From Bacteroidales bacterium (GTDB taxonomy: Bacteria > Bacteroidota > Bacteroidia > Bacteroidales > G3-4614): a stretch of DNA of 64,000 nucleotides. Of the stretch, positions 28,918 through 63,353 are shown one piece after another (position 1 is the stretch's first letter; each line of letters starts with the position of its first letter). The translations under genes were made by a program, and so were the position numbers. The DNA lies in NCBI GenBank assembly GCA_017559955.1, contig JAFYPQ010000042.1, positions 1 to 64,000 on the forward strand, in the 5' to 3' direction. The notes beneath the pieces were generated by a model, which was not told the DNA's origin, did no database searches, and was given only the letters and a program-made list of their open reading frames with translations.

Positions 28918-29009
28918 ATAAAATTATGTATAAATAACAATTGCTAATATACAAAAAAGATTTCTTTTGAATATATTATTATGTACTTATATAATTAACA
29001 ACTTCTATA

Positions 29010-29549: not shown

Positions 29550-30277
29550 TTAGAGAAATTATTTATGTAAAAGATAAAAATGCTCCATCTCAAATTCCTC
29601 CAATTTTTCAACCCGAGGTGGAGGCAATGAAACAACTTGGTATTCGTGTAGGAACAACTCCCTCTTCTGATAGCGAACAACTTTTTTATAGAGGGTTTAT
29701 TATGCACAGTAAAGAGCAATATCCTAATGATAAACGTTTTATTCAGGGCTGGAAAGAGTATGATGCAATACTATCTATGTCCAAGAATTATGATTTAATA
29801 AAGGATATATCTATTCCTACTTTTTTTGTAGATAAACTTGACAAAAGTGTTTCCGAAAAAATTATTTCAAGAGGTTGGGATAAGGCATTTATAAAGAACG
29901 AAAAAAAATCGTTGTGGGACGAGGGTGAATTGGCTTCGGTGTGGCCTATAAACTCTATTGAGGAGTTGCGATGTAAATATGAAAATCTACCCTACAAAGG
30001 GGTTTATGCAGTCAGAAAATTTATAAATCCCGAAATTTTTTATGATGAGGAGAGATATTGGGTTATCTTGAATAAAATATATCATAGGTCGGGGGTTATT
30101 CCCGATATAGTGCGTGAAGCCGTAGAAAGACTATCTGTTTTAGGTAGTAATTACTATACCATAGATGCCATTACTGATATGATTGTGGAGATAAATCCAG
30201 GAGAATCATCTGACCGATTAGGTGTTAATTCAGGCGAACTTTTTGCTATGTGGTGGAAAGAAGCTTTTGATCTATAA
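29546..30277 (+). CDS. ATP-grasp-like protein (R2K/DUF4343 type)
   Basis: A 243-residue soluble protein. The C-terminal AITDMIVEINPGESSDRLGVNSGELFAMWW (residues about 206-236) has the ATP-grasp metal-binding Glu-x-Asn pattern. The middle segment DKAFIKNEKKSL fits the nucleotide-binding lysine strand of the R2K clade. Members are proposed peptide or amino-acid ligases, often in conflict or natural-product contexts. No partner peptide or biosynthetic neighbour is visible. Its ATG overlaps the damaged 5' end of the divergent pseudogene by four bases. Function is not established. Confidence 0.55.
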   Translation: MIREIIYVKDKNAPSQIPPIFQPEVEAMKQLGIRVGTTPSSDSEQLFYRGFIMHSKEQYPNDKRFIQGWKEYDAILSMSKNYDLIKDISIPTFFVDKLDKSVSEKIISRGWDKAFIKNEKKSLWDEGELASVWPINSIEELRCKYENLPYKGVYAVRKFINPEIFYDEERYWVILNKIYHRSGVIPDIVREAVERLSVLGSNYYTIDAITDMIVEINPGESSDRLGVNSGELFAMWWKEAFDL

Positions 30278-30405
30278 CGTATATTACAAACTTTATCTTT
30301 TTCGCTTACTTCTGTGATTTTAGCGGAAGTCTTTATTGCGCTATGATACTCTCGTACTCATTGAAATAATCCAATAAACTTGATGTTATTTCGCTTACAT
30401 AATAG

Positions 30406-30414
30406 TATCTTTGT
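30406..30414 (+). promoter_or_regulatory. Bacteroidota -7 element before the TrmH-type gene
   Basis: TATCTTTGT is an exact TAnnTTTGY match 16 bases before the ATG at 30430. The upstream TTGA is displaced from the ideal -33 spacing. Confidence 0.5.
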
Positions 30415-30429
30415 GAAAAACATTGAAAA

Positions 30430-30960
30430 ATGAAAAAGTTATCGGTTATTGAGTTGGATAGAGTATCAAAAGAGGAGTTTAAACAACTTGATAAAACTCC
30501 TTTGGTTGTGGTTCTTGATAATATAAGAAGTTTAAATAATGTTGGTTCGGTTTTCCGTAGTTCTGATGCTTTTAAACTTGAGAAAATATATTTATGTGGA
30601 GTAACAGCCACACCTCCCAATGCTGAGATACATAAAACTGCACTTGGTGCAGAGGATAGTATGGATTGGGAATATTGTGAAGATACAAAACAGGTGGTAG
30701 AAAAACTTAAAAATGATGGTTATAAAGTATTTGCTGTTGAACAGGTACAAAATAGTATAATGCTCGATAAAGTTGAACTTGATAAAAATAGCCGTTATGC
30801 CCTTATATTAGGTAATGAGGTAAAAGGAGTTCAACAAGAGGTTGTAGATATGTGCGATTTTGCAGTTGAAATTCCTCAGTTCGGTACTAAACACTCTCTT
30901 AATGTATCAGTGGCAGGTGGAATAGTAATATGGGAATTCTTCAAAAAATTACAGTTTTAA
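30430..30960 (+). CDS. SpoU/TrmH-family RNA 2'-O-methyltransferase
   Basis: A 176-residue SPOUT (knotted) methyltransferase without an N-terminal RNA-binding extension. Motif 1 is LDNIRSLNNVGSVFRSSDAF near residue 30, motif 2 is YALILGNEVKGV near residue 120, and motif 3 is IPQFGTKHSLNVSVAGGIVIWEF near residue 148. It would methylate a ribose in tRNA or rRNA. The target (for example G18 of tRNA) cannot be assigned from the sequence. Confidence 0.88.
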   Translation: MKKLSVIELDRVSKEEFKQLDKTPLVVVLDNIRSLNNVGSVFRSSDAFKLEKIYLCGVTATPPNAEIHKTALGAEDSMDWEYCEDTKQVVEKLKNDGYKVFAVEQVQNSIMLDKVELDKNSRYALILGNEVKGVQQEVVDMCDFAVEIPQFGTKHSLNVSVAGGIVIWEFFKKLQF

Positions 30961-30967
30961 AAATAAA

Positions 30968-31000
30968 AGTAAAAAAGAGTTTTTAAAACTCTTTTTTACT
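30968..31000. terminator. bidirectional terminator
   Basis: A palindromic hairpin (AGTAAAAAAGAGTTT with AAACTCTTTTTTACT) lies between the TrmH-type gene (plus) and the deacetylase gene (minus), with T runs in both directions. Confidence 0.85.
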
Positions 31001-45984: not shown

Positions 45985-46569
45985 TTAGTCAATCAGATTA
46001 TTTAAAAACTGTGCCAATTTTTCCATGGCTTTTGCTCTGTGGCTTATTTGGTTTTTTATATCATCGCCCAATTCGGCAAAAGTTTTATCGTAGCCAAAAG
46101 GCTTAAAAACGGGGTCATATCCAAATCCGGCATTGCCTTTGGGTTCTTTGGTAATCTCTCCGGCTATCTCTCCCATAAAAATATGTTCGCTACCTCTTAA
46201 ACTTAAAGCTACGCATGTAACAAAAGCTGCACTTCTATACTCTATGCCATTTAGTTCGTTAAGGAGTTTTTCCATATTCTTTTGCGGATTGCAATCCTCT
46301 CCGGCATATCGTGCCGAATATACACCGGGGGCTCCGTCAAGTGCATCAACCAACAAACCTGTATCATCGGCAAAGCAGTCATATCCGTAGTGCTCTTTAA
46401 TATATCGGGCTTTTATTAATGCGTTGCCCTCTAATGTAGTGGCAGTTTCGGGAATATCGTCATTGCAATCTATCTCTGAAAGCGATAAAACCTCTACCAT
46501 TCCCTCTAATATTTTACGTGCCTCTTCTAATTTATGTTTATTATTTGTTGCAAATACAAGTTTTCTCAT
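45985..46569 (-). CDS. rdgB: non-canonical purine NTP pyrophosphatase (RdgB/HAM1)
   Basis: A 194-residue dITP/XTP pyrophosphatase that cleans the nucleotide pool. Motifs are [17 protein letters not shown] (N-terminus), [25 protein letters not shown] near residue 66 with the catalytic acidic pair, [24 protein letters not shown] near residue 145, and [11 protein letters not shown] at the end. It is upstream of porZ in a two-gene unit, an arrangement with no obvious functional link. Confidence 0.95.
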
Positions 46570-46654
46570 AATTGTATGTTTTTACTATTAACGTTTAATT
46601 AGGCTTCTCTATTGCATAGAGGCTCTTATATTTTGTCAATTCTAATAAACAATT

Positions 46655-46692
46655 AAGAGGCTGAATCAAAATTTATTTCGATACAGCCTCTT
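46655..46692 (-). terminator. terminator of the SPFH operon
   Basis: AAGAGGCTG pairs with CAGCCTCTT around an AT-rich loop whose inner GAT/ATC bases can pair. The minus-strand continuation is AATTGTTTAT, so the T tract is modest. Confidence 0.65.
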
Positions 46693-46709
46693 TGTAATAG
46701 ATGTTTATA

Positions 46710-47681
46710 TTATTCTTTTCCTGTTATATCGCTTATTTTAAATTTACCATCCATTTCTCGGACAGAGATTTTTCCATCCAATATTTTGAATAAGAACTCT
46801 TTTATCTTTTCGACGCTGAGTATTGCTTTTTCGCCGTTTGCGTCGATACCCATATCGTAGGTCCTTAATAGTTGAGAGCCCAAACTTGCGGCTGTCAGTA
46901 AGAAGTGGTTATTGAATTTCTCAAAATCAACTAAGTCGGCAGCCAAAACTTTACCTATTACCGTGTAACTGCGAAGAGTTTTTTGAACCTCTTCATTGGT
47001 TAGTTTACTTTTAATCTCGTCGCTCTCAACAAAAATTTCAATCTTACCTGAATTCTCAGATTCCGGTAATCCTTTATATAGCGATCCCAAATCGGCAAGA
47101 CTCAGGTTGTAAAGTTTTGTGTTTGTATCTGAAATCATTTTTTCAATTGAGAATGCACTTGGCAATAGGAAATATACAGTGTCTAAAACTTTTACCGATG
47201 GGGTATAGAATGTTCCCACCATCGATTTCCTAATCTCTAATGTTTGTGTGGCAAATACTCCGCCCACTACAACACAATCTTCAAGAATAATTTCATCGGC
47301 ATATATACTTCCTGCAACAAAGGCATTTCTTAGTGATACGCTTTTTGCATTTATGTCAGAGTAGAATAGAACTTCTCCTTGTGATGAGCGAGAAACTACC
47401 GAGTTTGAGGAAGCGACGCTTTTCTTCATCTTTATCACACCTTTTGCATCGGAATTTATATAGAACTCGTTTTGAGCAAATACGGCTCCTTGCAATTCCA
47501 AATCACCCTCTTGTATCTCTATTCTATAACCATATATAGCACCTTCTACAATGGTGTCTCCTTTGAAAATAATGTTTCTGTTTAATTCCGAAATCTTTTC
47601 GGGAAGTATTGTGCCTCTTACGAGGTTATCTTTTAGTAGTACTTCTTTGTCGTTAAAACGAATCTCTTTAAGCTCTTTCAT
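46710..47681 (-). CDS. bactofilin-like beta-helix protein (SPFH operon gene 6)
   Basis: A 323-residue cytoplasmic protein without signal or membrane segment. Residues about 30-180 have short beta-repeat rungs (GDTIVEGAIYGYRIEIQEGDLELQGAVFAQN, SLRNAFVAGSIYADEIILEDCVVVGGVFATQ), the pattern of polymer-forming bactofilins and related beta-solenoids. The C-terminal ~140 residues are helical and unrecognised. It is the last gene of a six-gene operon, 12 bases after its neighbour. A scaffold role is inferred. Confidence 0.6.
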   Translation of the reverse strand: MKELKEIRFNDKEVLLKDNLVRGTILPEKISELNRNIIFKGDTIVEGAIYGYRIEIQEGDLELQGAVFAQNEFYINSDAKGVIKMKKSVASSNSVVSRSSQGEVLFYSDINAKSVSLRNAFVAGSIYADEIILEDCVVVGGVFATQTLEIRKSMVGTFYTPSVKVLDTVYFLLPSAFSIEKMISDTNTKLYNLSLADLGSLYKGLPESENSGKIEIFVESDEIKSKLTNEEVQKTLRSYTVIGKVLAADLVDFEKFNNHFLLTAASLGSQLLRTYDMGIDANGEKAILSVEKIKEFLFKILDGKISVREMDGKFKISDITGKE

Positions 47682-47693
47682 AACTTATAGGAT

Positions 47694-48704
47694 TTAAATA
47701 TTATTTGAATAGTTGTTAAAAAATTGGGTAATATATCTCTTTACTCTCTCGTCGTGTTGGTTTGATGATTTGTAAAGTTCGCTTACCTCATTGTTGAAAT
47801 TGGTTTGCAACAACTCAAATTGAGCTGAGTTGTCGAGATTTTTGTTCTCGATTTTGCTAATTAAATTATCATTGTTGTATGCCTCTAATTTGTCAGGGGT
47901 ATAGATTTTTTTATTAATTATTTTACCTTCTTCTGTTTGAATAAAGCATACGGGAGCGTAAAAAGTTCCGCAATTGTTGTCGTCCGTAATGCTATTTTTC
48001 AAGATCGTTTCGGTCTGTTTTTGTTTAAGCAAAAATCTATTAGACTCATTTATGGCTTTGCATGCTAAATTCTTCATATGAGAAGCCTCAATTTTTGCAT
48101 CAAGGTTGCTGTTTTCTGCATTTGATACAATTACAGTTCCCACTAAATCATTGCTTATGGCTCTATCGTTTATTAAATCGCAATTTCTTTTGAATTTGAA
48201 AGTAGGTTTGTCTATCTCAAATATTCTGTTTTCAAGTTCTTTGTTAAGGTCTTCAAAAATTTTAGAGTAGCGATTTGATAATTGATTATAGTCGCTTTGC
48301 ATCTGCAACAATTTACCATTACATCTTTTTGATAGTTCGTGAAGGTGAATGAGGGTAGCTTCAATTCGTGAATTTAATTCGCAAATTTGCTGACTTATCT
48401 CTGATTGAACCGTTTTAAAGAATCCACTTATTATGGTATCACCTACCTTTTGGGCGTTTTCCTTTATTGATGCAACTTGTGCTACCTCGGTGGCTACAAT
48501 CGAACCGGTAAGCATATTGACATCATTGTTACAATCGATAATACTGCTGTCAAAAGGGTCGGTATCAACGTTTATGTTTACAGTAACATCTTCATGAGCA
48601 TATCCGCTATATGATACCGAACCTCCACGTTCAGAGGCAGGGTACGAAACGCTACCAGAATAATATACTGATATTCTTTTGGTAAAACTTCGTCTGTAAC
48701 TCAT
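47694..48704 (-). CDS. coiled-coil protein, paralogue B (SPFH operon gene 5)
   Basis: A 336-residue protein of unknown family. The N-terminal ~55 residues are Ser/Gly/Tyr-rich (SYRRSFTKRISVYYSGSVSY). A conserved core from about residue 65 has a long helical coiled coil (SEISQQICELNSRIEATLIHL..) and the signature RYSKIFEDLNKELENRIFEIDKPTF near residue 147. The next gene shares this core and signature, so the two are paralogues; the Ser/Tyr-rich head is found only here. It has no membrane segment. It is probably a structural partner of the operon's membrane proteins. Confidence 0.65.
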   Translation of the reverse strand: MSYRRSFTKRISVYYSGSVSYPASERGGSVSYSGYAHEDVTVNINVDTDPFDSSIIDCNNDVNMLTGSIVATEVAQVASIKENAQKVGDTIISGFFKTVQSEISQQICELNSRIEATLIHLHELSKRCNGKLLQMQSDYNQLSNRYSKIFEDLNKELENRIFEIDKPTFKFKRNCDLINDRAISNDLVGTVIVSNAENSNLDAKIEASHMKNLACKAINESNRFLLKQKQTETILKNSITDDNNCGTFYAPVCFIQTEEGKIINKKIYTPDKLEAYNNDNLISKIENKNLDNSAQFELLQTNFNNEVSELYKSSNQHDERVKRYITQFFNNYSNNI

Positions 48705-48709
48705 AATTC

Positions 48710-49624
48710 CTAAATTTTGCTTGTTTTAAAATTATTGGAGATAAACAACTTCTCGGTCATTTTCTTTACTCTCTCCGATGCGTTTGAAGCAGAGAGATAT
48801 TTATGAAATTCGCTTTTGAGTTCGTTGTTTATTTCCTCCTGCTCTTGCCAATTTAGTGATGATGTATTAATGCTGTTTTTAATGTTGTCTTGAACATTTT
48901 TTGACAATCCTGACCTATTGGTCTCTATGTTTAAGCATTTATTATCATATTTGTCGTAGTTACTTTCAACAATTACAACAGGAATCATTATTGTTGATTT
49001 GTCTTTATCTACATCTCCGGTCAATAGGATATGTTCTGACAACTCTTTTTGTTCTTTAAGACCACCAAGAAATCTATTCATCGACTCAATAACTTGTAAA
49101 CCAGAATATTTCATATTCGATGCAATTATTCTTTGGCTTGTTGTTATTGATTCGGTTTGAGACACAGGAGCTATAGCCGTTAAAAGTTTACCTCTGTTTG
49201 AGATAGCATTCATCTCTTTAACAGCAAATGTAATTGTAGGCTTATCAATTTCATATATTCTGTTTTCGAGATTTTTGTTTAATCTTCCAAAAAGAGTAGT
49301 ATATCTTTCAGAAATCATATGATAATCTTTTTCCATACGATTTCTTATGGCTGAAAGCTGTTTGTTTAGTTGGTTTAATTTAAGTAAGTGCGAATCGACT
49401 TCACTCTTTAATTTTGCAATCTTTTGTGATATTTGAGAGTGGATAAGGGTGTAAAATCCTTTATTAACATTATCACATACTAAATCTGCTGCATCGCTTT
49501 CGGCTTTTATAACAGCAGCCTTCATCCCTATCACAGCTCCGGTTGTCTTGTTTACGTTGTTAGAAACCGTGGCAATCTCCCTTGCCATAGGCTTGGTATC
49601 GACTACACAATCTATATATGCCAT
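48710..49624 (-). CDS. coiled-coil protein, paralogue A (SPFH operon gene 4)
   Basis: A 304-residue protein. After MAYIDCVVDTKPM comes a helical region (NNVNKTTGAVIGMKAAVIKAESDAADLV), then a coiled coil and the shared signature RYTTLFGRLNKNLENRIYEIDKPTI near residue 107. The opening AYIDCV recalls the start AIIDCV of the SPFH protein. It matches paralogue B over most of its length, including RIIASNMK..VIESMNRFL. No enzymatic motif is seen. The gap to paralogue B is only five bases. Confidence 0.65.
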   Translation of the reverse strand: MAYIDCVVDTKPMAREIATVSNNVNKTTGAVIGMKAAVIKAESDAADLVCDNVNKGFYTLIHSQISQKIAKLKSEVDSHLLKLNQLNKQLSAIRNRMEKDYHMISERYTTLFGRLNKNLENRIYEIDKPTITFAVKEMNAISNRGKLLTAIAPVSQTESITTSQRIIASNMKYSGLQVIESMNRFLGGLKEQKELSEHILLTGDVDKDKSTIMIPVVIVESNYDKYDNKCLNIETNRSGLSKNVQDNIKNSINTSSLNWQEQEEINNELKSEFHKYLSASNASERVKKMTEKLFISNNFKTSKI

Positions 49625-49634
49625 AATATGAATT

Positions 49635-51866
49635 TTATTCGTTATTACTTGATAATAAGAACTCTATCGCTGCATCTCTGTCGAAGTCTTCTTTATCATA
49701 CACAACTTCTAACTCGTCAAGGATAGCCATTAATTCTTCGTCCGACAGATTTCTGATCACCTCTTCATCTATCTCCTCATCTTCAAGGTCTTCTTCATCT
49801 TCAAGGTCTTCTTCATCTATCTCCTCATCTTCAAGGTCTTCTTCATCTTCAAAGTCTTCTTCATCTATCTCTTCATCCTCTAATTCTTCGTCCTCCTCGA
49901 CATACTCTTCTTTTATATTTTCGTTTTCGAGTTCTTGATTTTCGTCAATATTAATCTCCTCTTGCTCTATTGCAATATCTTCATTGTTTATCTCTTCCTC
50001 GTCGATATTCTCATCGGTTGGATTATATTCAGATTGTTGTTCTAAATTATCGAGAGCATTTTTAGCTATCGAAGGAAGATTTAGAGATATGTGTTCAAAC
50101 GTTATATCCTCTATATTGGGTTGAGGAGGCAAGTTTGAAGTTTTGGCGAATAGTGGGTTTGCTGCCGCCAAAGGTTTACGACGGTCGTCAAGAGAGTGAA
50201 CTTCGCTTGCTGCAACGGCAACTTCATTAGAGTATCCGTCTCGAAGTTTTCCGTCATAATATTCAACATGTCCAAATTTTTCTGCTTTGAAATTAATATC
50301 ATCTTTAAGTCGCTCGATATACTCCTCAAACTCCTCTTGAACCTTTTGGAACTCTTGCGATTGTAGTTCAAATGCTGCCAATGTTTCATTTGTGTTATCT
50401 ACGGTATCAACAATGGTAGAATCTAACTTCCCGCCCGATTTTTTCATACTATTCTCGGTTCTTTGCAATGATATAAGTGTGTTATATGAAGCAATATACT
50501 CTCTCAAGCTTTCTTGCATCAAGTTAATTATATCGCTACCCTCCGCTCTGTTTGAACGGTAGAATGCATCGGTATCTTGATGCCATTTGTTTAGGTAGTC
50601 AAGTTTTTGGCCTTTAATGTGATTATATACTTTTAAGCGTTCAAGACGGGTCTCCTCCAAAAGATTTTGAACAACCGGAGATACAATCTCTTCATATATT
50701 TGGTGAACTCCAAATGGCATATTTGTTGTATCTCCATCTTCCGAAGTCCACTCTCCCGAAATAAGATTTAATTTAACTCGTGAACTCTGTTTTAAATTGA
50801 AAGGCTCATAGTTTTGAACATCTTCCGAATAATCGAATTTTTCATTTTTGATTTTTTCGATTTCATCATATTCAAGAGTTGGAGAGTAGTGGTTATATGG
50901 CGATTTTAAAATTTTTAAAAGAAGTTTATTTGAATCTACAACCATTTTATCAACTGATGCCAATTTGAGTGAAGATATGGTTTGTACCGAACTGGCCATT
51001 GTTTTCATCAACGATTTTAAAACATCTTCAAATTGATGTGTTTTGGTCGACAAAGAGTCTTTAAGTTTGTTCAACTCTTGGAATTTATCAATACTATCGG
51101 CATATTTCTGTTTATCAAATACATTAACAATTGTTGCCTCTTGGGGGATATCTTTTGTAGCATATTCATTTAAGAAATTCAAATGTGAGCTATCTTCGGT
51201 AACCAATGGCAGTGATACAGAAGATATGTCCAAATCGTTCATACAATATGAAATTGTTTTGAGCGATCTTTCAAGTCCGCCGAGGTAGTCGTGTTGATTA
51301 ATCTCCTGAATTGAAGATGAGTAATTATCTGTCTCAATTTTTTCAGTATCAATCGAAGTTTCAACAATTGGTATCTCGTTTGAATTCTCTTCTAATTTTG
51401 CAATGGTGTCAATCAGTAAGTCGTTTCTCTTTGATAGCTGCAATACTACATTCGAGTTGTTTACCGAATTTGTATAATCTACAATGAAACTTTTATCTTC
51501 ATACTTAATTTGTTCTGCAACGGGAATATATGCAACTCCCATTTTTGAAACTTTGTAATCTCTGAATATCTCGTTATGTTGTTTTTTGAATTCTTCAATT
51601 CTTTCGTCAAGAGCAGCAATCTCTTTCTCGAACGAACTCTTTTTTATGAAATATACAAAAAACAAGATAATGGTTAACCACCATATCCATAATTTTGAAA
51701 TCTCTGTTTCAATTTCAGCTTTTTCCTCTTCCAACTTTTTAATTTCTTTTTCTATTCTCTCTTCTTCTGCAACTATTTTTTCAGCAGCTTGTTGATAATA
51801 GTTTAAGAGAATTTTGGCTTGATCCTGGCATACATTGCTGGATTCATCAAAAATTTTACCGCTCAT
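49635..51866 (-). CDS. membrane coiled-coil protein with acidic repeat tail (SPFH operon gene 3)
   Basis: A 743-residue protein. The N-terminal helix is Glu/Lys-rich (residues 25-58), then one hydrophobic segment IWWLTIILFFVYFI at about 60-75 and another coiled stretch to about 105. A long helical middle follows (to about 600). The tail at about 625-715 is almost all Glu/Asp, with a 16-residue repeat EEIDEEDLEDEEDLED encoded by 48-bp DNA repeats. A short folded end (LSDEELMAILDELEVV) resembles a small helical pair. It is probably an inner-membrane scaffold. No family is recognised. Confidence 0.65.
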   Translation of the reverse strand: MSGKIFDESSNVCQDQAKILLNYYQQAAEKIVAEEERIEKEIKKLEEEKAEIETEISKLWIWWLTIILFFVYFIKKSSFEKEIAALDERIEEFKKQHNEIFRDYKVSKMGVAYIPVAEQIKYEDKSFIVDYTNSVNNSNVVLQLSKRNDLLIDTIAKLEENSNEIPIVETSIDTEKIETDNYSSSIQEINQHDYLGGLERSLKTISYCMNDLDISSVSLPLVTEDSSHLNFLNEYATKDIPQEATIVNVFDKQKYADSIDKFQELNKLKDSLSTKTHQFEDVLKSLMKTMASSVQTISSLKLASVDKMVVDSNKLLLKILKSPYNHYSPTLEYDEIEKIKNEKFDYSEDVQNYEPFNLKQSSRVKLNLISGEWTSEDGDTTNMPFGVHQIYEEIVSPVVQNLLEETRLERLKVYNHIKGQKLDYLNKWHQDTDAFYRSNRAEGSDIINLMQESLREYIASYNTLISLQRTENSMKKSGGKLDSTIVDTVDNTNETLAAFELQSQEFQKVQEEFEEYIERLKDDINFKAEKFGHVEYYDGKLRDGYSNEVAVAASEVHSLDDRRKPLAAANPLFAKTSNLPPQPNIEDITFEHISLNLPSIAKNALDNLEQQSEYNPTDENIDEEEINNEDIAIEQEEINIDENQELENENIKEEYVEEDEELEDEEIDEEDFEDEEDLEDEEIDEEDLEDEEDLEDEEIDEEVIRNLSDEELMAILDELEVVYDKEDFDRDAAIEFLLSSNNE
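49764..49880. repeat. 48-bp coding tandem repeat, about 2.4 copies
   Basis: Units start at 49764, 49812 and 49860 (TTCATCTATCTC...). They are built of smaller 21-bp-like TCTTCAAGGTCTTCT words and encode the acidic repeat of the gene. The number of copies could change by slippage in steps of 16 residues without a frameshift. Confidence 0.9.
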
Positions 51867-51872
51867 AATTTT

Positions 51873-52577
51873 TTAGTTATATATGTTTTTCCTACTTTGA
51901 AATAAAAACTCTGCTTTTTTCAGACCATTAAGAATTCTATCTTTATTTAGTTCGTAGTTAGAAAAAGCTATCTCGACACTCTTAATTTCATCAATTAAAT
52001 CTTTCTCTAACTTTACAGCCTCGCTATTGCTCGAAGGAGATAAAAATCTAATATCTTCGGTTAGTCTTTTTATAATAGTGCTAATCTCTGTATCTATATC
52101 AGCCTTCTCGTATATCTTGGCATTTAGCTGATTTATAGCAGCTTTAATATTGTTTTTGCCTTCGTTTTTAATATCAATGCTCTCTTGTGTTTTTGAGGCT
52201 CTGTCTCCTGCCGCAATAATTCCCATTACTCCAAAAAGGAAAAATAACAACAAAACGCATTGAATAATCAATTGTAGTTTAAATGTTAATTCAGGTATTA
52301 TTTTCCCCAAAAGAATTATTGTAAATACCAAAATGGTATAAAGAATTGTAAAGGTTAGTTTCATCCCCAAAGAGGCAACGCTTTTTTGCTCCTCTTTACC
52401 TTTGCCAATCCATTGAGAAAAACTGCTTAAATGAAGTATTGTATATGCAAAGAGAGAGACCAATAAATTCAAATAAAATATATTGACCGCTTCTCTATTT
52501 CCCCAAATAAAAAATGAGGCTGTTATTATTGCTACACCTCCGAAGAGTGTAGCCCATTTTAATATTGCGTATTTCAT
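51873..52577 (-). CDS. four-helix membrane protein with coiled-coil tail (SPFH operon gene 2)
   Basis: A 234-residue inner-membrane protein with hydrophobic helices at about 8-25, 32-50, 72-95 and 102-122, then a soluble helical tail of ~110 residues (IKAAINQLNAKIYEKADIDTEISTIIKRLTEDIRFL). No motif is recognised. It starts six bases after the SPFH gene. Topology suggests the tail is cytoplasmic, where it could meet the coiled-coil proteins of the operon. Confidence 0.65.
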   Translation of the reverse strand: MKYAILKWATLFGGVAIITASFFIWGNREAVNIFYLNLLVSLFAYTILHLSSFSQWIGKGKEEQKSVASLGMKLTFTILYTILVFTIILLGKIIPELTFKLQLIIQCVLLLFFLFGVMGIIAAGDRASKTQESIDIKNEGKNNIKAAINQLNAKIYEKADIDTEISTIIKRLTEDIRFLSPSSNSEAVKLEKDLIDEIKSVEIAFSNYELNKDRILNGLKKAEFLFQSRKNIYN

Positions 52578-52582
52578 AATAG

Positions 52583-53833
52583 TTATCTTTTTTTACCACA
52601 AACAGGACAAAATTTCACATTCGATTTAAATGGCGTTCCACATCTTTGGCAGACATCATTGCTGATTAACTTATGACCGCAGTTGCTACAAAATGGAGAG
52701 TTTAAGTCAACTTCGCATTTACAATTGGGACATACTGCCGATATAATTTGAAGACCGATTCCGCAACTTACACATCTCTTAGCGTTAATGTCATTATCTG
52801 TACCGCATTTTGGGCAAGGATTATAAGGGTCTCCGCAATGAGGACAGAAATTCATCGAACTTGAGAATTTCTTTGAACAATTAGAACAATATACCATTCT
52901 TTCGTTATTGCTCATTTGAGGATTTTGGTTAACCGCATTGCTATTATTAAACCTTGGTTGGTTATAGTTAGCCTCCATCATTCGGCCACCCATATTACCT
53001 CCATTGCTGTTAATCATATTCATAGCCATTAATCCTCCGAGTAATCCCATATTGCCGTTCCCGAATTCTCCAATTGCATTATTGGCTGTTTTGAAGGCTT
53101 GTTCTTGTTGCCAAGTATGTCCGGTAATGCTCATCTCACTTTGCATATTGATAGCATTCTTTATACGCATACCATCCTCTGAATTGTCGATACCAATAGA
53201 GTTGACATAAAATTTGGTAAGCTCTATGCCTAACTCTCCCCAGAAAGGAACCATCTTCTCTTTTAAGAATTGAGATATGCTTTCGAGGTGGGCAGAAATT
53301 CTTTTAAAGCCGATTTTGTTCATATCCAAAAATTGAGTAATTGCCGATTTCGTTTTGGTAGAAAACTCGCCGGCAAATTGTTCGGTTAAGTCTCTTTGGG
53401 TAAATCTGTTTTTGGTTCCAACGGCTTTAATCAAGAATTTTTCGGCATCAACAATTTTTATACCATATTGACCATAAGCTTCAAGCGGGATATATGTATC
53501 ATAATCGATATCGTGGGTACTTATTCCATCAACACTCCAAGTAAGGTTGTAGAGATGAAGTTTATTTATAAACCACACCTCTGCCGTAAATGGGTTTTTC
53601 TTACCAAAAGGCAATCCATATAAACTTCTTAGTATAGGTAGGTTCTTAGTGTCGAGAGTATATTTCCCGGCTCCGAACTTTCCTGCCAACCTTCCCTCGA
53701 TGAAAAGGATGGCTTCTTGCGATTCATGAACAATTAGTTGAGTATAGGTACTCAAGTTTGTTTCGGGGTAGTGCCATGCAAAAATTTCGGCGTTCTCCTG
53801 TGGCGACCAGCTGACACAATCTATTATAGCCAT
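52583..53833 (-). CDS. SPFH domain protein with four zinc ribbons (SPFH operon gene 1)
   Basis: A 416-residue protein. Residues about 25-240 are an SPFH/band-7 domain of the YdjI ('virion core protein'-like) type (LIVHESQEAILFIEGRLAGKFGAGKYTLDT; IGIELTKFYVNSIGI). A Gly/Asn/Met-rich linker at 255-310 is followed by four CxxC...CxxC zinc ribbons (CSNC/CPHC, CPKC/CVSC, CPNC/CSNC, CQRC/CPVC). There is no transmembrane helix. SPFH proteins form membrane-bound oligomeric rings or microdomains, and YdjI of Bacillus lies in a membrane-stress operon. It is the first gene of the operon, so it is probably its organiser. Confidence 0.85.
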   Translation of the reverse strand: MAIIDCVSWSPQENAEIFAWHYPETNLSTYTQLIVHESQEAILFIEGRLAGKFGAGKYTLDTKNLPILRSLYGLPFGKKNPFTAEVWFINKLHLYNLTWSVDGISTHDIDYDTYIPLEAYGQYGIKIVDAEKFLIKAVGTKNRFTQRDLTEQFAGEFSTKTKSAITQFLDMNKIGFKRISAHLESISQFLKEKMVPFWGELGIELTKFYVNSIGIDNSEDGMRIKNAINMQSEMSITGHTWQQEQAFKTANNAIGEFGNGNMGLLGGLMAMNMINSNGGNMGGRMMEANYNQPRFNNSNAVNQNPQMSNNERMVYCSNCSKKFSSSMNFCPHCGDPYNPCPKCGTDNDINAKRCVSCGIGLQIISAVCPNCKCEVDLNSPFCSNCGHKLISNDVCQRCGTPFKSNVKFCPVCGKKR

Positions 53834-53873
53834 AGTTATATATTTTTGATTTATAATTCCAAATTTCCTTTTT

Positions 53874-53882
53874 GCAAATGTA
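53874..53882 (-). promoter_or_regulatory. -7 element of the SPFH operon
   Basis: On the minus strand TACATTTGC matches TAnnTTTGY, 41 bases before the SPFH start. No exact TTTG is found at -33. Confidence 0.5.
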
Positions 53883-54068
53883 AAAAATTTTAATAATATT
53901 TAGAAGTTGTTTAATAAAAATTAGCGGTGAATAAAAATTTATATTATCGACAACATTTAAAATGTGTTATTTTATTGATAAATTTTAAATTTATAATTTA
54001 CTTTGTAAAAGGTTTGGAGATTGTTTAGATTAAATTCAAGGCAAGTCTCTTTTTAAAATATATTGGCT

Positions 54069-56225: not shown

Positions 56226-57065
56226 ATGAATCTTACCAACTATCACTCACATTCGCCATATTGCGATGGGCGATGCAACATCGAGGAGTTTGTTGCAACG
56301 GCTGTTTTTTGGGGTTTTACCTCATATGGGGTTTCTCCTCACTCGCCAATTCCATACCCGTCGTCGTGCAATATGCGACACGATAGGGTTGAAGAGTATA
56401 TCTCTGAAATGAACAGACTCAAAAAAAAGTATGCGTCGAAAATAGAGCTATATATTGGAATGGAGATAGATTATTTTGGAGAAGAGTGGAATGCGTCGAA
56501 TGACTATTTTCAAACAATACCTCTCGATTATCGTATAGCATCGGTTCATTTTATAGCAAACCAAGAGGGGGAGTATTATGATATAGATGGCAATGCTCAA
56601 AAGTTTATAAAATTAGTTGACACCCATTTTGGAGGAGATATAAGATATGTGGTAGAGACCTATTTTGAGAATATGATTAAAATGATTGAAATAGGAGGCT
56701 ACGATTTTATAGGTCATCCCGATAAAATATCAATGAACGCATCGGCATATACCCCTCATATCACCGATAGCACATGGTATAAAGATATAGTTCACGATTA
56801 CTTCAAATTTATAGCAAATAAAGGGGTTATGTTAGAGGTAAATACAAAAGCATTTATACCTCATTCATATCTTTTTCCCAATGTTCAGCATCTTAAATAT
56901 CTTAAAGAACTAAATATTCCCTTGGTGGTTAATAGCGATGCACACATACCTTCATTAATGAAGAGTGGATTTAATGAGACATACGCTCTCTTAAAAGAAG
57001 CAGGATATAAAAATACCATGCAACTTTCGGGAGGGGAGTGGGTTGAAAATCACATTCAGATTTAA
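56226..57065 (+). CDS. hisK: histidinol-phosphatase, PHP family (HisK)
   Basis: A 279-residue PHP-domain phosphatase. Metal-binding blocks are NYHSHSPYCDGRCNIEEF (residues 4-21), VSPHSPIP near residue 37, IGMEIDYFGEEW near residue 76, DFIGHPDKI near residue 157, and VVNSDAHIP near residue 235. It would hydrolyse histidinol phosphate in histidine synthesis, but no other his gene is near, so a related phosphoesterase role is possible. It begins six bases after rnr and is probably co-transcribed. Confidence 0.85.
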   Translation: MNLTNYHSHSPYCDGRCNIEEFVATAVFWGFTSYGVSPHSPIPYPSSCNMRHDRVEEYISEMNRLKKKYASKIELYIGMEIDYFGEEWNASNDYFQTIPLDYRIASVHFIANQEGEYYDIDGNAQKFIKLVDTHFGGDIRYVVETYFENMIKMIEIGGYDFIGHPDKISMNASAYTPHITDSTWYKDIVHDYFKFIANKGVMLEVNTKAFIPHSYLFPNVQHLKYLKELNIPLVVNSDAHIPSLMKSGFNETYALLKEAGYKNTMQLSGGEWVENHIQI

Positions 57066-57139
57066 TTATAAATATTTTATAAGTGCAGGCAATGTTATTA
57101 AGGGTACTATTAATGCTGTTTCTTTAAAATCTCCTAAAA

Positions 57140-57700
57140 CTATCCAATTAGAACTCTTATGTTCACACCCTCTTTTTCCCCTGCAACATAAGTTAGAGGA
57201 GTAGAACCTTCATGAATAAGATTACTTAAGTAAAGAGGTTCGTTTTGAATAAACAGATTGCAGGTGAAGGTATCACCGATACTTAATTTTGAATTAACGC
57301 TTTCGATAACTTCAAACTGTGAGTTTCCCAAATATTTAATAACAATTGATCGGTCGGGTATCCAAGTAATATGTAGAGATTCTCCCCTTATAAGATTTTT
57401 CACATCAATACTATCCGAATCTACAATTCTACTTTGTATATTCTCATAGTTATTTCTATTATTACAGAAAACGTCAAAGTTTCTGTATCCCACATATTTA
57501 GCAAGTACATCCAGAGTATGAGGACGAGTATCAACACTCTCGTTTTTTAGATAACCCCAAAAACGTTTTAAGGTAGTAGGTGATAATCTTTCTCTTGTTT
57601 TCTCCCAAATAAGGTTACTCAACTCCTCAAAGTTGCCTGCAGTAACCATCTTAAATCCTGCAGTGCGTTCAACTGTTTGTCTTAAAATATCGTGTATCAT
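57140..57700 (-). CDS. protein of unknown function with TLKRFWGYL module
   Basis: A 186-residue protein. An N-terminal helical module, residues 1-80 (ILRQTVERTAGFKM, NFEELSNLIWEKTRERLSPTTLKRFWGYL, TLDVLAKYVGYRNFDVFC), recalls a helix-turn-helix-like unit seen in many Bacteroidales proteins (from memory). The C-terminal ~95 residues are beta-rich (SLHITWIPDRSIVIKYLGN, FTCNLFIQNEPLYLSNL). It has no signal peptide. A broken paralogue is at 29010-29549, with long stretches of near-identical DNA. A regulatory role is possible but not shown. Confidence 0.65.
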   Translation of the reverse strand: MIHDILRQTVERTAGFKMVTAGNFEELSNLIWEKTRERLSPTTLKRFWGYLKNESVDTRPHTLDVLAKYVGYRNFDVFCNNRNNYENIQSRIVDSDSIDVKNLIRGESLHITWIPDRSIVIKYLGNSQFEVIESVNSKLSIGDTFTCNLFIQNEPLYLSNLIHEGSTPLTYVAGEKEGVNIRVLIG

Positions 57701-57815
57701 TTCTTTATGTTTTTAGTTGTCATAATTTTTAGCAACTGACAACTCTTTCCACTGCAAAGGTATAATCAAAAAATTAAAGTTGTATCACCTTTATTTCAAA
57801 AGGACAGAAAAGGAC

Positions 57816-57847
57816 TTGACCACGCAATTTAGCCACACTACTTTTGC
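57816..57847 (+). promoter_or_regulatory. Bacteroidota promoter of the exported four-gene module
   Basis: TTG(A) at 57816-57818 and TACTTTTGC (57839-57847, exact -7 match) with a 20-base spacer, 89 bases before the first start codon. Confidence 0.6.
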
Positions 57848-57935
57848 CCCAAAATAAGCATTGTGCTATCTAATAAGCAGGTTAATAGAAGACTTCTAAA
57901 TTATACATTTATTAATATTAAAACACAAAATTATT

Positions 57936-59498
57936 ATGAGTAAGAGATTATTACTATTGCTGGCAGGCTTATTGCCTTTATTTGCTTTTGCGCAGAGTAC
58001 AGAAAAAGTTGCTCCGGCACCATCATTTGATTATAGTAGAAATAGTTTGACTATTATTTCTGTAATTGATGATAATTGTACATATGGATATGGTCAAGGA
58101 GCAATTGAAGCTTTTATTGATTCGGTGTATTATGCCGAAGGTCGTTATGATAAATTTGATTTTAACAGAATTCCGACCGAATACATTTCAACAAGCAATA
58201 CTTTAGAGAATGTAAATAAGGCTCTTGAAGAGAAAGGTATCGGAAAACAAGTTCTTGACTATTGGGTACAATTTGATGGACAATATTTTAATGAGTCATT
58301 AATGGAAAAACGTGCTTGTTATAATGCAACAGATGCAGACGTTTTAGCTGATAAATCAAATAAAGTATCTCAAATAGCAGCATCGGGTAAGGCATTAATG
58401 AATAACTCTTATGTTGTAGTTGTAGGACCAACATCATCACCAACACAAAAGAAAAACAATAAGGGCGAAACTGTTTACGAAACCAAATATGCAGCTCATG
58501 TTTATAAAGTTAATTTTAATGATACAGTAATGACTACCGTATGGGAAAATTGGCTTTATGATGGAATGCCTGAAGATGAATTTAAAGTTCAAAAGAGTGT
58601 TTATGATAATTTGAAAGTTGAACTTACTCACATTGAAAGTGTAAACGGTTCTGTAACAATAAAAGATAAGGACGCATCTTTCTATGCATCTTTTGGAGAG
58701 GGTATCAGTAGCTTTGATGGTAAAATAGATGCATGGAAACCTGTTACATCTGTATATGACAAAAGACCTCTTCAAGCAAAAATAGGTAAAAAAGAGGGAC
58801 TTAAAAACTCAGATCGTTATAGAGGATATAAAGTAATGGAAGATGCTGAAGGAAATATAGAGTACAAACCTGTAGGTTATGCTCGTGCTACAAAAGTATA
58901 TGACAATAGAACTGAAGCAACAGGTGAGAGTGAGTGCTCTTATTTCTATCAAATATCAGGAGGTAAGAACTTCTCTGAAGGTATGATTATGAAAGAGGAT
59001 AAAGATGCTCATGTATCTATTTCAGTATCGGGAGCTTGGAATGGATTTAGCTATGGTACTATAGGTGCTGACTATTTGTTCCATACTACTCGAGTAGCAG
59101 GTATTATGCAATATGTGGGATTGGAAATTGGTTTCGACATGGAAAAAGTTAATCTTTTAGGAGATGATTATCTAAATATGTATATCCCCATTGCCATTAA
59201 CTATAGTGTAGGTTTCCACCCTGTAAGATGGGTTGAGATTCAACCATATGTAGGAATAGGTGCCGATTACTTTATGCCTGCAAGTGAGATGAAACCTGAT
59301 GATAGTTCATTCGCAAAACAACTTGCTTACTTTGCTCATGGAGGTTTAAAAGTTGGAGTAAATGTATGCTATCCAGTACAAGTGTTTGCTAAAGTGGGTT
59401 ACTCTTACAAATTTATGGAAGGAGATTACTACTTTAGTTCAGAGAGAGATCGTTTTGGAACATTCAGTATAGGAGGTGGAGTAAAAGTTAGCTTCTAA
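57936..59498 (+). CDS. exported protein with C-terminal barrel-like region (module gene 1)
   Basis: A 520-residue protein with a signal peptide ending FAFAQ (about residue 20). The N-terminal part (SLTIISVIDDNCTYGYGQGAIEAFIDSVYYAEGRYDKFDFNRIP) resembles the nucleotide-sugar-free alpha/beta core of CsgG-like proteins. The last ~180 residues alternate strands and turns (IGADYLFHTTRVAGIMQYVGLEIGF..) and end in KVSF, the terminal-Phe signature of outer-membrane barrels. An outer-membrane location is inferred. It leads a module of four exported proteins. No named family is recognised with confidence. Confidence 0.65.
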   Translation: MSKRLLLLLAGLLPLFAFAQSTEKVAPAPSFDYSRNSLTIISVIDDNCTYGYGQGAIEAFIDSVYYAEGRYDKFDFNRIPTEYISTSNTLENVNKALEEKGIGKQVLDYWVQFDGQYFNESLMEKRACYNATDADVLADKSNKVSQIAASGKALMNNSYVVVVGPTSSPTQKKNNKGETVYETKYAAHVYKVNFNDTVMTTVWENWLYDGMPEDEFKVQKSVYDNLKVELTHIESVNGSVTIKDKDASFYASFGEGISSFDGKIDAWKPVTSVYDKRPLQAKIGKKEGLKNSDRYRGYKVMEDAEGNIEYKPVGYARATKVYDNRTEATGESECSYFYQISGGKNFSEGMIMKEDKDAHVSISVSGAWNGFSYGTIGADYLFHTTRVAGIMQYVGLEIGFDMEKVNLLGDDYLNMYIPIAINYSVGFHPVRWVEIQPYVGIGADYFMPASEMKPDDSSFAKQLAYFAHGGLKVGVNVCYPVQVFAKVGYSYKFMEGDYYFSSERDRFGTFSIGGGVKVSF

Positions 59499-59515
59499 TA
59501 TAATATCTAATCAGT

Positions 59516-60052
59516 ATGAAAAATTCATTAAAAACATTGGGCTTAATAATAATGTTATTTGCCCTTGTACCGGCTCTATCTTTCGCTAAAAAGATAGACA
59601 AAAGAGAGGTTATTGCAACATGGTCAAAATACGAAGTATCTACTGTTGCAGTTGGACAAAATGGAACTAAAAGCTTGAAAGTTTGGGGCTATGGAAAGAA
59701 GATAGACAAAGCTATTGAGCAAGCAAAGAAAAATGCTGTTCATGCATGTCTCTTTAGAGGTTGCCCAGGAGCAGCTAATGCAAGAGAGACTCCGGCTATT
59801 TTTAAATTGCAAGGAAGTGAACAAGTGTCAATAGATAATTTTGAATATTTCTATGACTTCTTTGAAGAAAACGGAGACTATATTGCATTTGTAAATGTAA
59901 CAACAGACGGTATCCCTTCAGGTCAAGATCGTCGTCAAGTTAAGGGAGGTTACAAAGTGTGTATCAGCGTACAAGTTATGTACGATAACTTGAGAGATAA
60001 AATGAAACGCGATGGTATTCTTAACGATTCTTCATCACGATTTAGTTACTAA
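59516..60052 (+). CDS. exported LPP20/FlgT-like protein (module gene 2)
   Basis: A 178-residue protein with a signal peptide ending ALSFA. The segment SLKVWGYGKKIDKAIEQAKKNAVHACLFRG (residues about 53-82) has the strand-helix pattern of LPP20/FlgT N-terminal domains, which occur in outer-membrane-associated assembly proteins. The C-terminal half has two further strands (FVNVTTDG, YKVCISVQVMY). It follows gene 1 by 17 bases. It is probably periplasmic, bound to a module partner. Confidence 0.6.
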   Translation: MKNSLKTLGLIIMLFALVPALSFAKKIDKREVIATWSKYEVSTVAVGQNGTKSLKVWGYGKKIDKAIEQAKKNAVHACLFRGCPGAANARETPAIFKLQGSEQVSIDNFEYFYDFFEENGDYIAFVNVTTDGIPSGQDRRQVKGGYKVCISVQVMYDNLRDKMKRDGILNDSSSRFSY

Positions 60053-60069
60053 ATAATTATAGATTGTAT

Positions 60070-61032
60070 ATGAAAAAAATATTTCTATTGGGGTACCTAT
60101 TGGTTTTTTCTTTAGGCATCTTCGCCCAAGCTAAAAAACCCGTTTTGATGATTGTCCCATCTGATAGTTGGATGGCTAAAAATAACTTTATGAAGCCTAT
60201 TCAAGATATGTCAGGGGAGACTAAATATGTGGCAGATTATAGCATGGCCTTTCTTCAAAATGATGATTTAAGTAAAGTAATCGGAGCAATGGAGAATTTT
60301 ATGAACCAAGAAGGTTATGAAATTCAAAGTTTGAATAGTGCTCTAAAAGATTTGGAACAACAAGATGCAATATCAAATGTAGATGATGCAGGAGGAGGCG
60401 TAGATATGAGTCCGTTGGATATGATCTTAAATACGGTTACTTGTGATATCAAGGTTGAACTATTTTATGAGATAAAGAGAGAGGGTCCCTATAAATTTGT
60501 TGAGTTTAACGTTAGTGCAGTAGATGCCTATAATAATAAACCTGTATCACCCGGAAACATAGGAAGAGGAACAGCAGCTCCAAATGCTCAAATTGTTAAT
60601 CAATTAGAGGAGGCAGTATTGAGTTTTAAAGATAAATTCATCAATGATATGGATTTATATTATAATCGACTCTTTGAAAACGGACGTCAAATTATGGTAC
60701 GTTGTATGAAAACAAGCAACAGCTCTGTTACTTTTGATGATGAGGTAGGAGATGACGAAGAGATTCTATCTGATCTACTTGAAGACTTTATTACTGAAAA
60801 CGCCTTCAAAAGCAATGCTTCAACACAAGGAGCTGTAACTGCTAACAACATTACATTCAGAGTACAAATTCCTATGACTTACACCGATTCAAAAGGTAGA
60901 GAAAAAGGTACAAGTGCAAAATGGTTTGGTAGAAAGGTTCAAAAATTCCTTGAAGAGACAACAGGAGTACAATGCTCTATGCTAACTCAAGGATTAGGAG
61001 CAGTGAGAATTAGTTTGGGAGGAGGTGAGTAA
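60070..61032 (+). CDS. exported DUF6175-like protein (module gene 3)
   Basis: A 320-residue protein with a signal peptide ending LGIFAQ. The opening KPVLMIVPSDSWMAKNNFM, the middle DIKVELFYEIKREGPYKFVEFNVSAVDAYNNKPV, FENGRQIMVRC near residue 210 and the C-terminal GRKVQKFLEETTGVQCSMLTQGLGAVRISLG fit my memory of DUF6175, a Bacteroidales family of unknown function. The ATG at 60070 is chosen over a TTG six bases earlier. Its stop overlaps the next start (TAATG), so the two are translationally coupled. Confidence 0.6.
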   Translation: MKKIFLLGYLLVFSLGIFAQAKKPVLMIVPSDSWMAKNNFMKPIQDMSGETKYVADYSMAFLQNDDLSKVIGAMENFMNQEGYEIQSLNSALKDLEQQDAISNVDDAGGGVDMSPLDMILNTVTCDIKVELFYEIKREGPYKFVEFNVSAVDAYNNKPVSPGNIGRGTAAPNAQIVNQLEEAVLSFKDKFINDMDLYYNRLFENGRQIMVRCMKTSNSSVTFDDEVGDDEEILSDLLEDFITENAFKSNASTQGAVTANNITFRVQIPMTYTDSKGREKGTSAKWFGRKVQKFLEETTGVQCSMLTQGLGAVRISLGGGE

Positions 61033-61973
61033 TGAAAGCGAAACTTATATTAACCTTGTTAGTAACAATATTGTTTTGCGGTTTCACATCTGCACAAGAT
61101 GTAAATAAGATTGCGTTAAGTGCTTATATCCCTGATAATTGTGGAGTACCACCGGCATCTCGAAAGGTATTGGATACGAAGTTAAAAAGTCTTGTAACTT
61201 CGTGTGGTTTTGGGGCAGAATCGAATAAACGATTTATATTGACATCTCAAATCAATATATTAACAGAGGACATTCTTCCCACAACTCCTGTTATGTTTTC
61301 TTATACTCTTTCGGTTAATATGTATATAGGAGATGGAGTATCAGGCACACTATTTTCAACCACTTCAATGGAGGTAAAAGGTACCGGAAAAACCAAGGAT
61401 AAGGCATATTTGCAAGCTCTAAAAGCAATAAATCCAAAAAATGCCGAGTTCAAAGCTTTTATAGAAGAGGGTAAACAAAAAATAATCGATTATTATAAAG
61501 TAACCGCTCCTTCTATAATTAGTAAGGCTCAAAGTTTGGCTACATCTCAAAAATACAAAGAGGCAATATATGTGTTATCAGAGATACCTCAAGAGTGTAC
61601 AGAGTTTTATGAGCAGGCTAATAAATTGACATCAGAGTTTTATATAAAACATATATCTGAAGAAGGTAAAATATTATTGGCAGAGGCAAGAGGAGTATGG
61701 AACTCTTCACAAGACAGAGCTGCTGCCGATAAAGCCGGAGAAATATTAGCCAAAATAAATCCTGCAGCACCACAATATGACGAAGCCGCAAAGCTAGGTG
61801 AGGAGATTGCTAAAAGAATAGAAGCATTAGATGCTCGTGAATGGCAGTTTAAACTTCAAAAACAGAAAGATGAAACAGAAATTGCTAAGTTACAGATAAA
61901 TGCTGCAAAGGATATAGCAATAGAGCAAGCAAGAAACCAACCAGACATAGTATATGATATATATTGGTGGTAA
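61032..61973 (+). CDS. exported CsgG-like/coiled-coil protein (module gene 4)
   Basis: A 313-residue protein with a signal peptide ending GFTSAQ. The N-terminal ~150 residues (KIALSAYIPDN, LDTKLKSLVTSCGFGAESNKRFILTSQINI, ..GTLFSTTSMEVKGTGKTKDKAYLQALKAI) follow the strand order of CsgG/TolB-N-like domains. The rest is helical with TPR-like turns (KYKEAIYVLSEIP) and a charged coiled coil near the end (EWQFKLQKQKDETEIAKLQ). It is the last gene of the module, with a terminator 29 bases downstream. Function is unknown. Confidence 0.6.
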   Translation: MKAKLILTLLVTILFCGFTSAQDVNKIALSAYIPDNCGVPPASRKVLDTKLKSLVTSCGFGAESNKRFILTSQINILTEDILPTTPVMFSYTLSVNMYIGDGVSGTLFSTTSMEVKGTGKTKDKAYLQALKAINPKNAEFKAFIEEGKQKIIDYYKVTAPSIISKAQSLATSQKYKEAIYVLSEIPQECTEFYEQANKLTSEFYIKHISEEGKILLAEARGVWNSSQDRAAADKAGEILAKINPAAPQYDEAAKLGEEIAKRIEALDAREWQFKLQKQKDETEIAKLQINAAKDIAIEQARNQPDIVYDIYWW

Positions 61974-62001
61974 ATAAATTCATAGTTAAATTATTTTTAT
62001 A

Positions 62002-62027
62002 GTGGGGTTAATCAACCCCACTCTTTT
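62002..62027 (+). terminator. terminator of the exported module
   Basis: GTGGGGTT pairs with AACCCCAC across the loop AATC, followed by TCTTTT. Confidence 0.9.
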
Positions 62028-62200
62028 AAAGAGACACATTTATATAAAATATTGACTTATTGTAAACTGTTGTACCTATTAATTTAGCAAGATTTCCTAG
62101 TGCTTATCAGCAGAAATGGGTGCTTCAGTACTTATAAAAATTATTATTTCCACATAGTGGGAAGATAAGTTTCGTAAACAAAAAAATTCTTTCTAGTGGG

Positions 62201-62246
62201 TAGGGGCTGTTTTAGAATGTATAATTCTATGACAGCCCCTATTTTT
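62201..62246 (+). terminator. second hairpin in the module-cysE gap
   Basis: TAGGGGCTGT pairs with ACAGCCCCTA, with an inner AGAAT/ATTCT stem, followed by TTTTT. It is not needed by the gene module, which has its own terminator at 62002. It may end a short transcript from 62030-62200, where I found no gene. The rest of the 468-base gap (62247-62441) is AT-rich leader before cysE. Confidence 0.7.
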
Positions 62247-62441
62247 CTAATATATCAATTAATTCAACTATGTTGGTATATGGTTAAAATCTCATTTCGA
62301 ATTTATTTGAAAATAGTCCTTAAATAAATTTTAAACAACTTCTTACTTGTAACTGAATTTATTTTGTTTATTTTGCATAATGATTGCTAAAATGCGGTAA
62401 TATGATTTTGTCATATCCCATATTACCTATTAACAAAATAG

Positions 62442-63353
62442 ATGATGCGAAAAGAAAAACATGCACAATCAATAAGAGAGGCAGTGGAACAACTCTCAAA
62501 TCAGGAGTCGGTGCGTATATTATGCAACCGACAACAAGAGGGCGAACCAATGCCATCGGCAAAGGAGCTTTACGAAATAATAGACCTGTGCCGATCACTA
62601 ATATTTCCGGGATATTTCGGACATTCTCGAATTGACATAGATACATTACCTTATCATATAGGAGTTAATACTGAAAAACTGTTTAAACTATTGATAAGTC
62701 AGATACTTGCGGGAATGTGTAGCGGAAATCCGCAACAAGGTACGAGTGTAGAGGCTCGCCGTGAGACAGCAAAAGACATAGCGGCACAGTTCGTAGCATC
62801 GTTGCCTGAATTGCGACGAATTTTGGCTACCGATGTTATAGCAGCTTTCAATGGCGACCCCGCAGCCGAGAGCTATTCTGAGGTAATATTTTGTTACCCT
62901 GCCATTAGAGCCATAAGCAACTATCGTATAGCACACCGTTTAATGGAGTTGGGAGTACCCCTTATTCCTCGAATAATATCAGAAATGGCACACTCCGAAA
63001 CAGGAATAGATATTCATCCAGCGGCAACCATTGGCGAATATTTTACTATCGACCACGGAACAGGAGTGGTTATCGGAGCCACTGCCATATTGGGTAACAA
63101 TGTAAAACTTTACCAAGGAGTTACACTTGGGGCAAAGAGTTTTCCATTAGACGAAGACGGCAATCCGATTAAAGGTATTGCCCGACATCCGATTATAGGC
63201 GATAATGTAATAATATATTCAAACGCTACTATCCTTGGCAGAATAACCATTGGTGAAGGAGCTGTCATCGGAGGTAACATCTGGATAACCGAGAGTGTGG
63301 CACCGGGCGAGGTGGTAACACAATCAAAAGCAAAACAGAAAAAAGGAGAATAA
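62442..63353 (+). CDS. cysE: serine O-acetyltransferase
   Basis: A 303-residue enzyme making O-acetylserine for cysteine synthesis. The N-terminal helical half is followed by a left-handed beta-helix of hexapeptide repeats from about residue 190 (GIDIHPAATIGEYFTIDHGTGVVIGATAILGNNVKLYQGVTLGA; NVIIYSNATILGRITIGEGAVIGGN). The histidines of DIHP and DHGTG that act in catalysis are present. It is longer than E. coli CysE, like the EpsC-type enzymes of Bacteroidales. The next gene begins five bases downstream. Confidence 0.92.
   Translation: MMRKEKHAQSIREAVEQLSNQESVRILCNRQQEGEPMPSAKELYEIIDLCRSLIFPGYFGHSRIDIDTLPYHIGVNTEKLFKLLISQILAGMCSGNPQQGTSVEARRETAKDIAAQFVASLPELRRILATDVIAAFNGDPAAESYSEVIFCYPAIRAISNYRIAHRLMELGVPLIPRIISEMAHSETGIDIHPAATIGEYFTIDHGTGVVIGATAILGNNVKLYQGVTLGAKSFPLDEDGNPIKGIARHPIIGDNVIIYSNATILGRITIGEGAVIGGNIWITESVAPGEVVTQSKAKQKKGE

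Follow-up and report, generated by a model that had tools for sequence, protein, structure and literature searches.

We analysed a 64,000-nucleotide stretch of a Bacteroidales bacterium genome (GenBank assembly GCA_017559955.1, contig JAFYPQ010000042.1, positions 1 to 64,000; hereafter the window) and found that six adjacent minus-strand genes at 46710-53833 form a gene system that appears to be new, with five of the six families nameless in the libraries searched. Our preferred reading, to which we give a probability of about 50%, is that these genes constitute a self-contained, horizontally moving module that builds a protein scaffold attached to the cytoplasmic side of the membrane, perhaps for surveillance or reinforcement of the envelope. 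The six genes recur in this order in dozens of genomes, which puts their grouping far beyond chance.

We named the genes A (encoding an SPFH protein), B, C, D, E and F in their order of transcription. The six open reading frames, A (52583..53833), B (51873..52577), C (49635..51866), D (48710..49624), E (47694..48704) and F (46710..47681), were found where an earlier reading of the sequence by a model (the first-pass annotation) had placed them, with gaps of 5, 6, 10, 5 and 12 bases. A divergent RNase R gene begins upstream at 54063 on the plus strand, and rdgB lies downstream of F (45985-46569, minus strand). Judging from its sequence and coordinates, the unit has a terminator-like hairpin of its own, AAGAGGCTG...CAGCCTCTT (46655..46692, minus strand), 17 bases beyond the F stop codon.

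Using C as the query, we scanned approximately 85,000 species genomes and obtained at least 80 named loci; all locus counts given here are among the matches listed, and the loci are mostly on contigs of metagenome-assembled genomes, for which the organism name may be wrong in single cases. The carriers belong to Bacteroidota, Bacillota (Clostridia), Spirochaetota (Treponema), Fibrobacterota and Ignavibacteriota. C was called as a gene in 76 loci, of which 54 have the complete order A-B-C-D-E-F on one strand; the remainder are truncated at a contig end, have broken gene calls or hold a partial set, and none of the 76 has an alternative gene order. The six proteins have correlated pairwise distances (0.84-0.97 across 32 loci, above every permutation). 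Because five loci, one of them from Treponema, carry C-D-E-F without adjoining A and B, C-D-E-F is the core of the module and A-B the usual add-on. A search of these five genomes, some of them draft assemblies, for an A-family SPFH domain elsewhere returned zinc-ribbon matches only. The first-pass annotation had proposed an undescribed membrane-scaffold system and had named two findings that would speak against it, scattering of the six genes among relatives and assignment of the coiled-coil genes to a known phage or stress system. The genes are not scattered and co-occur in a fixed order, and B to F received no assignment from Pfam, NCBIfam, PHROGs, PADLOC or the PDB; we regard the proposal as supported.

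The block is sparsely distributed. A search with F in the window's order detected it in 8 of 393 genomes beyond the window's own, one of these being a contig-end fragment match, and all seven of the seven usable loci have the order A-B-C-D-E-F. In the family of Treponema, 3 of 145 genomes carry the block, and its overall frequency is approximately 2-3% of the species sampled, figures that vary with sampling and with how sensitive each search was. Across the phylum, a search with C returned the window and one weak match only; its sampling lay mostly outside the order, and it bounds the frequency and not the absence of the block.

Comparison with congeners provided an empty site. In four of them (L108-L111), rdgB and RNase R adjoin at a distance of approximately 225 bases (synteny, blastn), and the roughly 7.3 kb between the approximate block ends, 46640..53973, is absent. 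The block is present in one of seven congeners, at another place. Because this other carrier in the genus has the block elsewhere, we favour a gain in the window's lineage over a loss in the four congeners, and from such sequence comparisons the block appears to move horizontally as a unit. At the junctions of the window block we found no obvious target-site duplication and no integrase, and base composition shows no sign of transfer (GC content of 34.5% for the block vs 35.5%). Apart from zinc-ribbon genes after F in four loci, no neighbouring gene recurs. The possibility that the module is a prophage or plasmid gene set was ruled out because C matched none of 50,697 phage and 72,556 plasmid records and F had no match in IMG/VR.

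Gene A encodes 416 residues with an SPFH domain at residues 26-218, a Gly/Met-rich linker and four C-terminal zinc ribbons. Its match to PF13421 (SPFH/Band_7_1; 1.6e-37, 129.6 bits) is above the curated cut-off of 24, which makes A the sole protein of the six with a curated-family match above cut-off. The zinc ribbons are marked by eight CxxC pairs at 316, 330, 340, 354, 368, 382, 395 and 409 and by a match to Zn_Ribbon_1 (2.8e-16), in agreement with the initial description of the protein. Hydropathy revealed no hydrophobic or transmembrane segment, which points to a soluble protein. PF13421 proteins over the cut-off occur in 91 of 386 genomes of the window's order, most of them members of a different subfamily. 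That large, higher-scoring subfamily (L115-L144; approximately 370-400 residues) is widespread in the order and distinct from the module SPFH protein. Gene B encodes a fast-evolving protein of 234 residues (24-35% identity) with approximately four hydrophobic helices, as had been proposed, and a helical tail at the C terminus that ends with a conserved RK; R229 is invariant in the alignment and K230 is nearly so. Because membrane segments, by hydropathy, are confined to B and C, these two proteins are the sole possible membrane anchors.

C, with 743 residues, is the largest core protein and, together with F, among the best conserved. It is a membrane-anchored coiled-coil protein with a conserved core (residues 1-609) followed by a variable acidic tail with a HeH/LEM-like end. 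Identity to seven relatives is 55-66% overall, and that of the core is 47-74% within Bacteroidota. A hydrophobic segment at residues 56-74 sits inside a long N-terminal helical pair, and AlphaFold2 (AF2) places helices at 12-64, 66-98, 387-476 and 492-540. A Foldseek comparison of the core model, which is itself weak, with the PDB gave no match (best E 1.1), nor did a profile search of the PDB with C. The acidic tail of this membrane protein, also noted at first reading, consists of 62.5% D/E over residues 613-700. It is followed by a HeH/LEM-like motif, LSDEELMAILDELEVVYDKEDFDRDAAIEFLL (49638..49766, minus strand), that is common to relatives; Pfam scored this motif as LEM in one relative (4.6e-6) and as Rho_N in another (1.3e-5), and gave no score for the window copy. 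Among relatives, the tail is acidic in many, HeH/LEM-like in many Bacteroidales, made of zinc ribbons in some and ribosomal L7/L12-like in others. A conserved core with a swapped small-domain tail would fit a docking arm. The L7/L12-type ending was observed at four loci (L048, L054, L061 and L062), where C terminates in a domain resembling the ribosomal L7/L12 C-terminal domain, with 1.3e-17 as the best match of the aligned set; such a fusion is unusual in a membrane coiled-coil protein.

The 304-residue protein D is predicted by AF2 to consist of a single 137-residue helix (11-147), a helix at 157-199 and a small alpha/beta C-terminal domain, with a mean predicted local distance difference test score (pLDDT) of 78 that rises to approximately 92-96 across residues 51-120. 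E (336 residues) is a paralogue of D with an N-terminal extension; the paralogy suggested by the first-pass annotation was confirmed by hhalign at 100% probability (1.1e-58, 299 columns). In both proteins, the hydrophobic period over the long helix is 3.66 (11/3, a hendecad), with scores of 94 and 88 for D and E vs 95th percentiles of 46 and 42 in shuffled controls. Hendecad periodicity is characteristic of helix assemblies that are straight or have a slight right-handed twist. If straight, the long helix of the D model would measure approximately 20 nm by helix geometry. Foldseek gave no significant match of the D model to the PDB (best E 0.77), and VIA-align returned only Z < 6, a level common for long helices; because the VIA-align list can be filled by one part of D, the protein may still have a known fold. 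A profile search of the PDB gave no match for D and only helical look-alikes or chance matches for B and E.

F (323 residues) contains a tentative bactofilin-like beta-solenoid (approximately residues 35-170) and a conserved second half (approximately 172-314). It had been described as bactofilin-like, and a weak likeness stands; the window protein scored 14.7 bits against Bactofilin (PF04519), below the cut-off of 27.9. Weak matches to PF04519 were found in 30 of 40 F members (best 1.1e-4), and the sole PDB profile match of F is the bactofilin 2N3D, at E 0.67. Because direct profile comparison with four bactofilins of carrier genomes by hhalign found nothing, we did not adopt F as a member of the bactofilin family. 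At four Salinivirgaceae-type loci (L057, L060, L066 and L072), F is immediately followed by additional zinc-ribbon genes in the same orientation, and these are possibly an extension of the module.

No enzyme family was recognised in any of the six proteins (Pfam, NCBIfam, PADLOC, PHROGs), in line with the first description of the locus. We infer an assembled structure in which C would be the membrane-anchored hub, while D and E, as homologous rods of approximately 20 nm with 11-residue periodicity, may pair into a hetero-oligomeric filament or sheet that F, as a bactofilin-like solenoid, would cap or polymerise with. Soluble A could form a ring or cluster recruited by B, by analogy with the recruitment of YdjI by YdjG/YdjH, and the exchangeable C tail, whether acidic, HeH/LEM-like, zinc ribbon or L7/L12-like, may dock a partner. 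Envelope maintenance is favoured because of the SPFH analogy: the most likely use would be to survey or reinforce the envelope when stress occasionally arises, which would explain why few species keep the block. Several observations weigh against this reading. Given the loci with C-D-E-F only, the essential element cannot lie in the SPFH part, the C model is of low confidence (pLDDT 66, AF2), and the periodicity of the F solenoid is not significant. The flanking genes, most of which are housekeeping genes, hint at no function, and it is by analogy alone that a stress role is proposed. A bolder version, in which the module is an as yet undescribed, horizontally spreading cytoskeleton-like system comprising an anchored hub, a two-protein hendecad rod lattice, a solenoid polymer and an optional SPFH ring, with no nucleotide-driven enzyme, seems possible to us, with the odds somewhat against it.

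Because the block is sparse and mobile, the main rival is an unrecognised defence against phages or other mobile elements, in which the scaffold would sense or block membrane events of infection. The patchy presence of the block (8 of 393 genomes of the window's order in addition to the window itself; 3 of 145 genomes of the family of Treponema), its gain or loss as a unit, its carriage by distant phyla and its exchangeable C tails would all suit such a role, and defence-model matches (DpdF, AbiEi, PsyrT, Mokosh) are scattered among the neighbours, without a background rate for comparison. However, PADLOC models matched none of the six proteins, Pfam and NCBIfam revealed no recognisable nuclease, NADase, pore or other effector, and the neighbours are mostly housekeeping genes. 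Moreover, what is exchanged are small domains on one C tail and not a whole effector gene, and we consider a defence function unlikely.

We judge it less likely still that the module answers envelope stress in the manner of a phage-shock system, as the counterpart in Bacteroidota of Bacillus subtilis pspA-ydjGHI with D and E in the place of PspA. This proposal draws on the membership of A in the SPFH Pfam family of YdjI and its zinc-ribbon ending (PMC8581546, PMC11237479), and on the two membrane proteins and then long helical proteins that come after A. Against it, the PspA/IM30 family was found in none of 12 genomes (eight carriers, including the window's own, and four congeners without the block) by a search whose control was positive in 9 of 14 known genomes, and by this defining PspA test the module is not a phage-shock system. 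Pfam revealed neither a TPM domain nor another Psp membrane-partner domain in B and C, A and B are dispensable, and D, one very long helix followed by an alpha/beta domain, has no significant match in the PDB. The least probable of the explanations, and in our view a far-fetched one, is an internal organelle or a link between membrane and nucleoid, in which the HeH/LEM-like tail of C would bind DNA and the filament would form a lamina-like layer. It can draw on the HeH matches of LEM or Rho_N type in C tails, on the long rods, on the tentative solenoid and on the lack of enzymes among the parts; yet many relatives lack the tail or have L7/L12-like or zinc-ribbon modules in its place, the copy in the window escapes detection, and the strongly acidic C linker would repel DNA.

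Co-retained, ordered families across several phyla together with apparent block transfer are a pattern that usually marks a complete molecular machine. If the membrane scaffold holds true, the module would be a system of a new kind that serves as a cytoskeleton or guards the envelope without enzymes, and the zinc-ribbon SPFH proteins, which are poorly understood, would gain a defined set of partners. Records for Barnesiella sp. An55 and Labilibaculum filiforme suggest that carrier isolates exist, which makes direct testing feasible.

Other features of the window include a second stretch absent from congeners, 57066-62441, which holds a 186-residue minus-strand gene and four plus-strand genes of secreted or outer-membrane type (57936-61973); in three congeners the homologue of 62442-63353 comes immediately after the gene corresponding to 56226-57065. 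The genes at 57140-57700 and 29010-29381 encode closely similar small-protein paralogues, 28 kb apart, one shorter than the other, that have the motif LRGE.LHITW.PDRS in common. The region 24001-31000 is low in GC (25-32%), contains a eukaryotic-like serine/threonine kinase gene (27763-28917) and looks like a separate acquired region.

For B to F, Pfam and NCBIfam gave no family that passed the cut-off, PADLOC gave no family at all, PHROGs gave no convincing match and the PDB no convincing relative. The literature searched, which took in no preprints, bioRxiv included, and few subscription journals, described neither the six-gene set nor a pairing of bactofilin and SPFH proteins, and the set is not described in the relevant passages of a Psp survey and a survey of prokaryotic SPFH proteins. 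In the Bacillus subtilis pspA-ydjGHI operon, the SPFH/zinc-finger protein YdjI is recruited through YdjG/YdjH and localises PspA (PMC8581546). A and YdjI are both soluble members of one SPFH Pfam family with zinc ribbon at the C terminus (PMC8581546, PMC11237479), both operons encode two membrane proteins, and recruitment of a helical oligomer is probable. Unlike that operon, the module has neither PspA nor the TPM-domain protein YdjH, its SPFH protein has four zinc ribbons, it adds five families without relatives, and its core exists without the SPFH gene. Flotillin-NfeD (SPFH2) operons likewise place an SPFH gene beside one for a small multi-helix membrane protein, whereas A has no membrane anchor, the partner genes differ and no NfeD domain was matched in B or C (Pfam, NCBIfam). 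The SPFH-zinc-ribbon proteins of archaeal ESCRT/adaptin loci also combine SPFH, coiled coil and zinc ribbon, in membrane-remodelling loci, whereas the module has no ESCRT, ATPase or adaptin component (PMC10936438). From bactofilins (BacA, PF04519), F is set apart by its score below cut-off, by the failed profile-profile match and by its large conserved extra C-terminal region, and it resembles them in a weak profile similarity over the predicted solenoid and in the common idea of a nucleotide-free polymer, proposed here for F by analogy.

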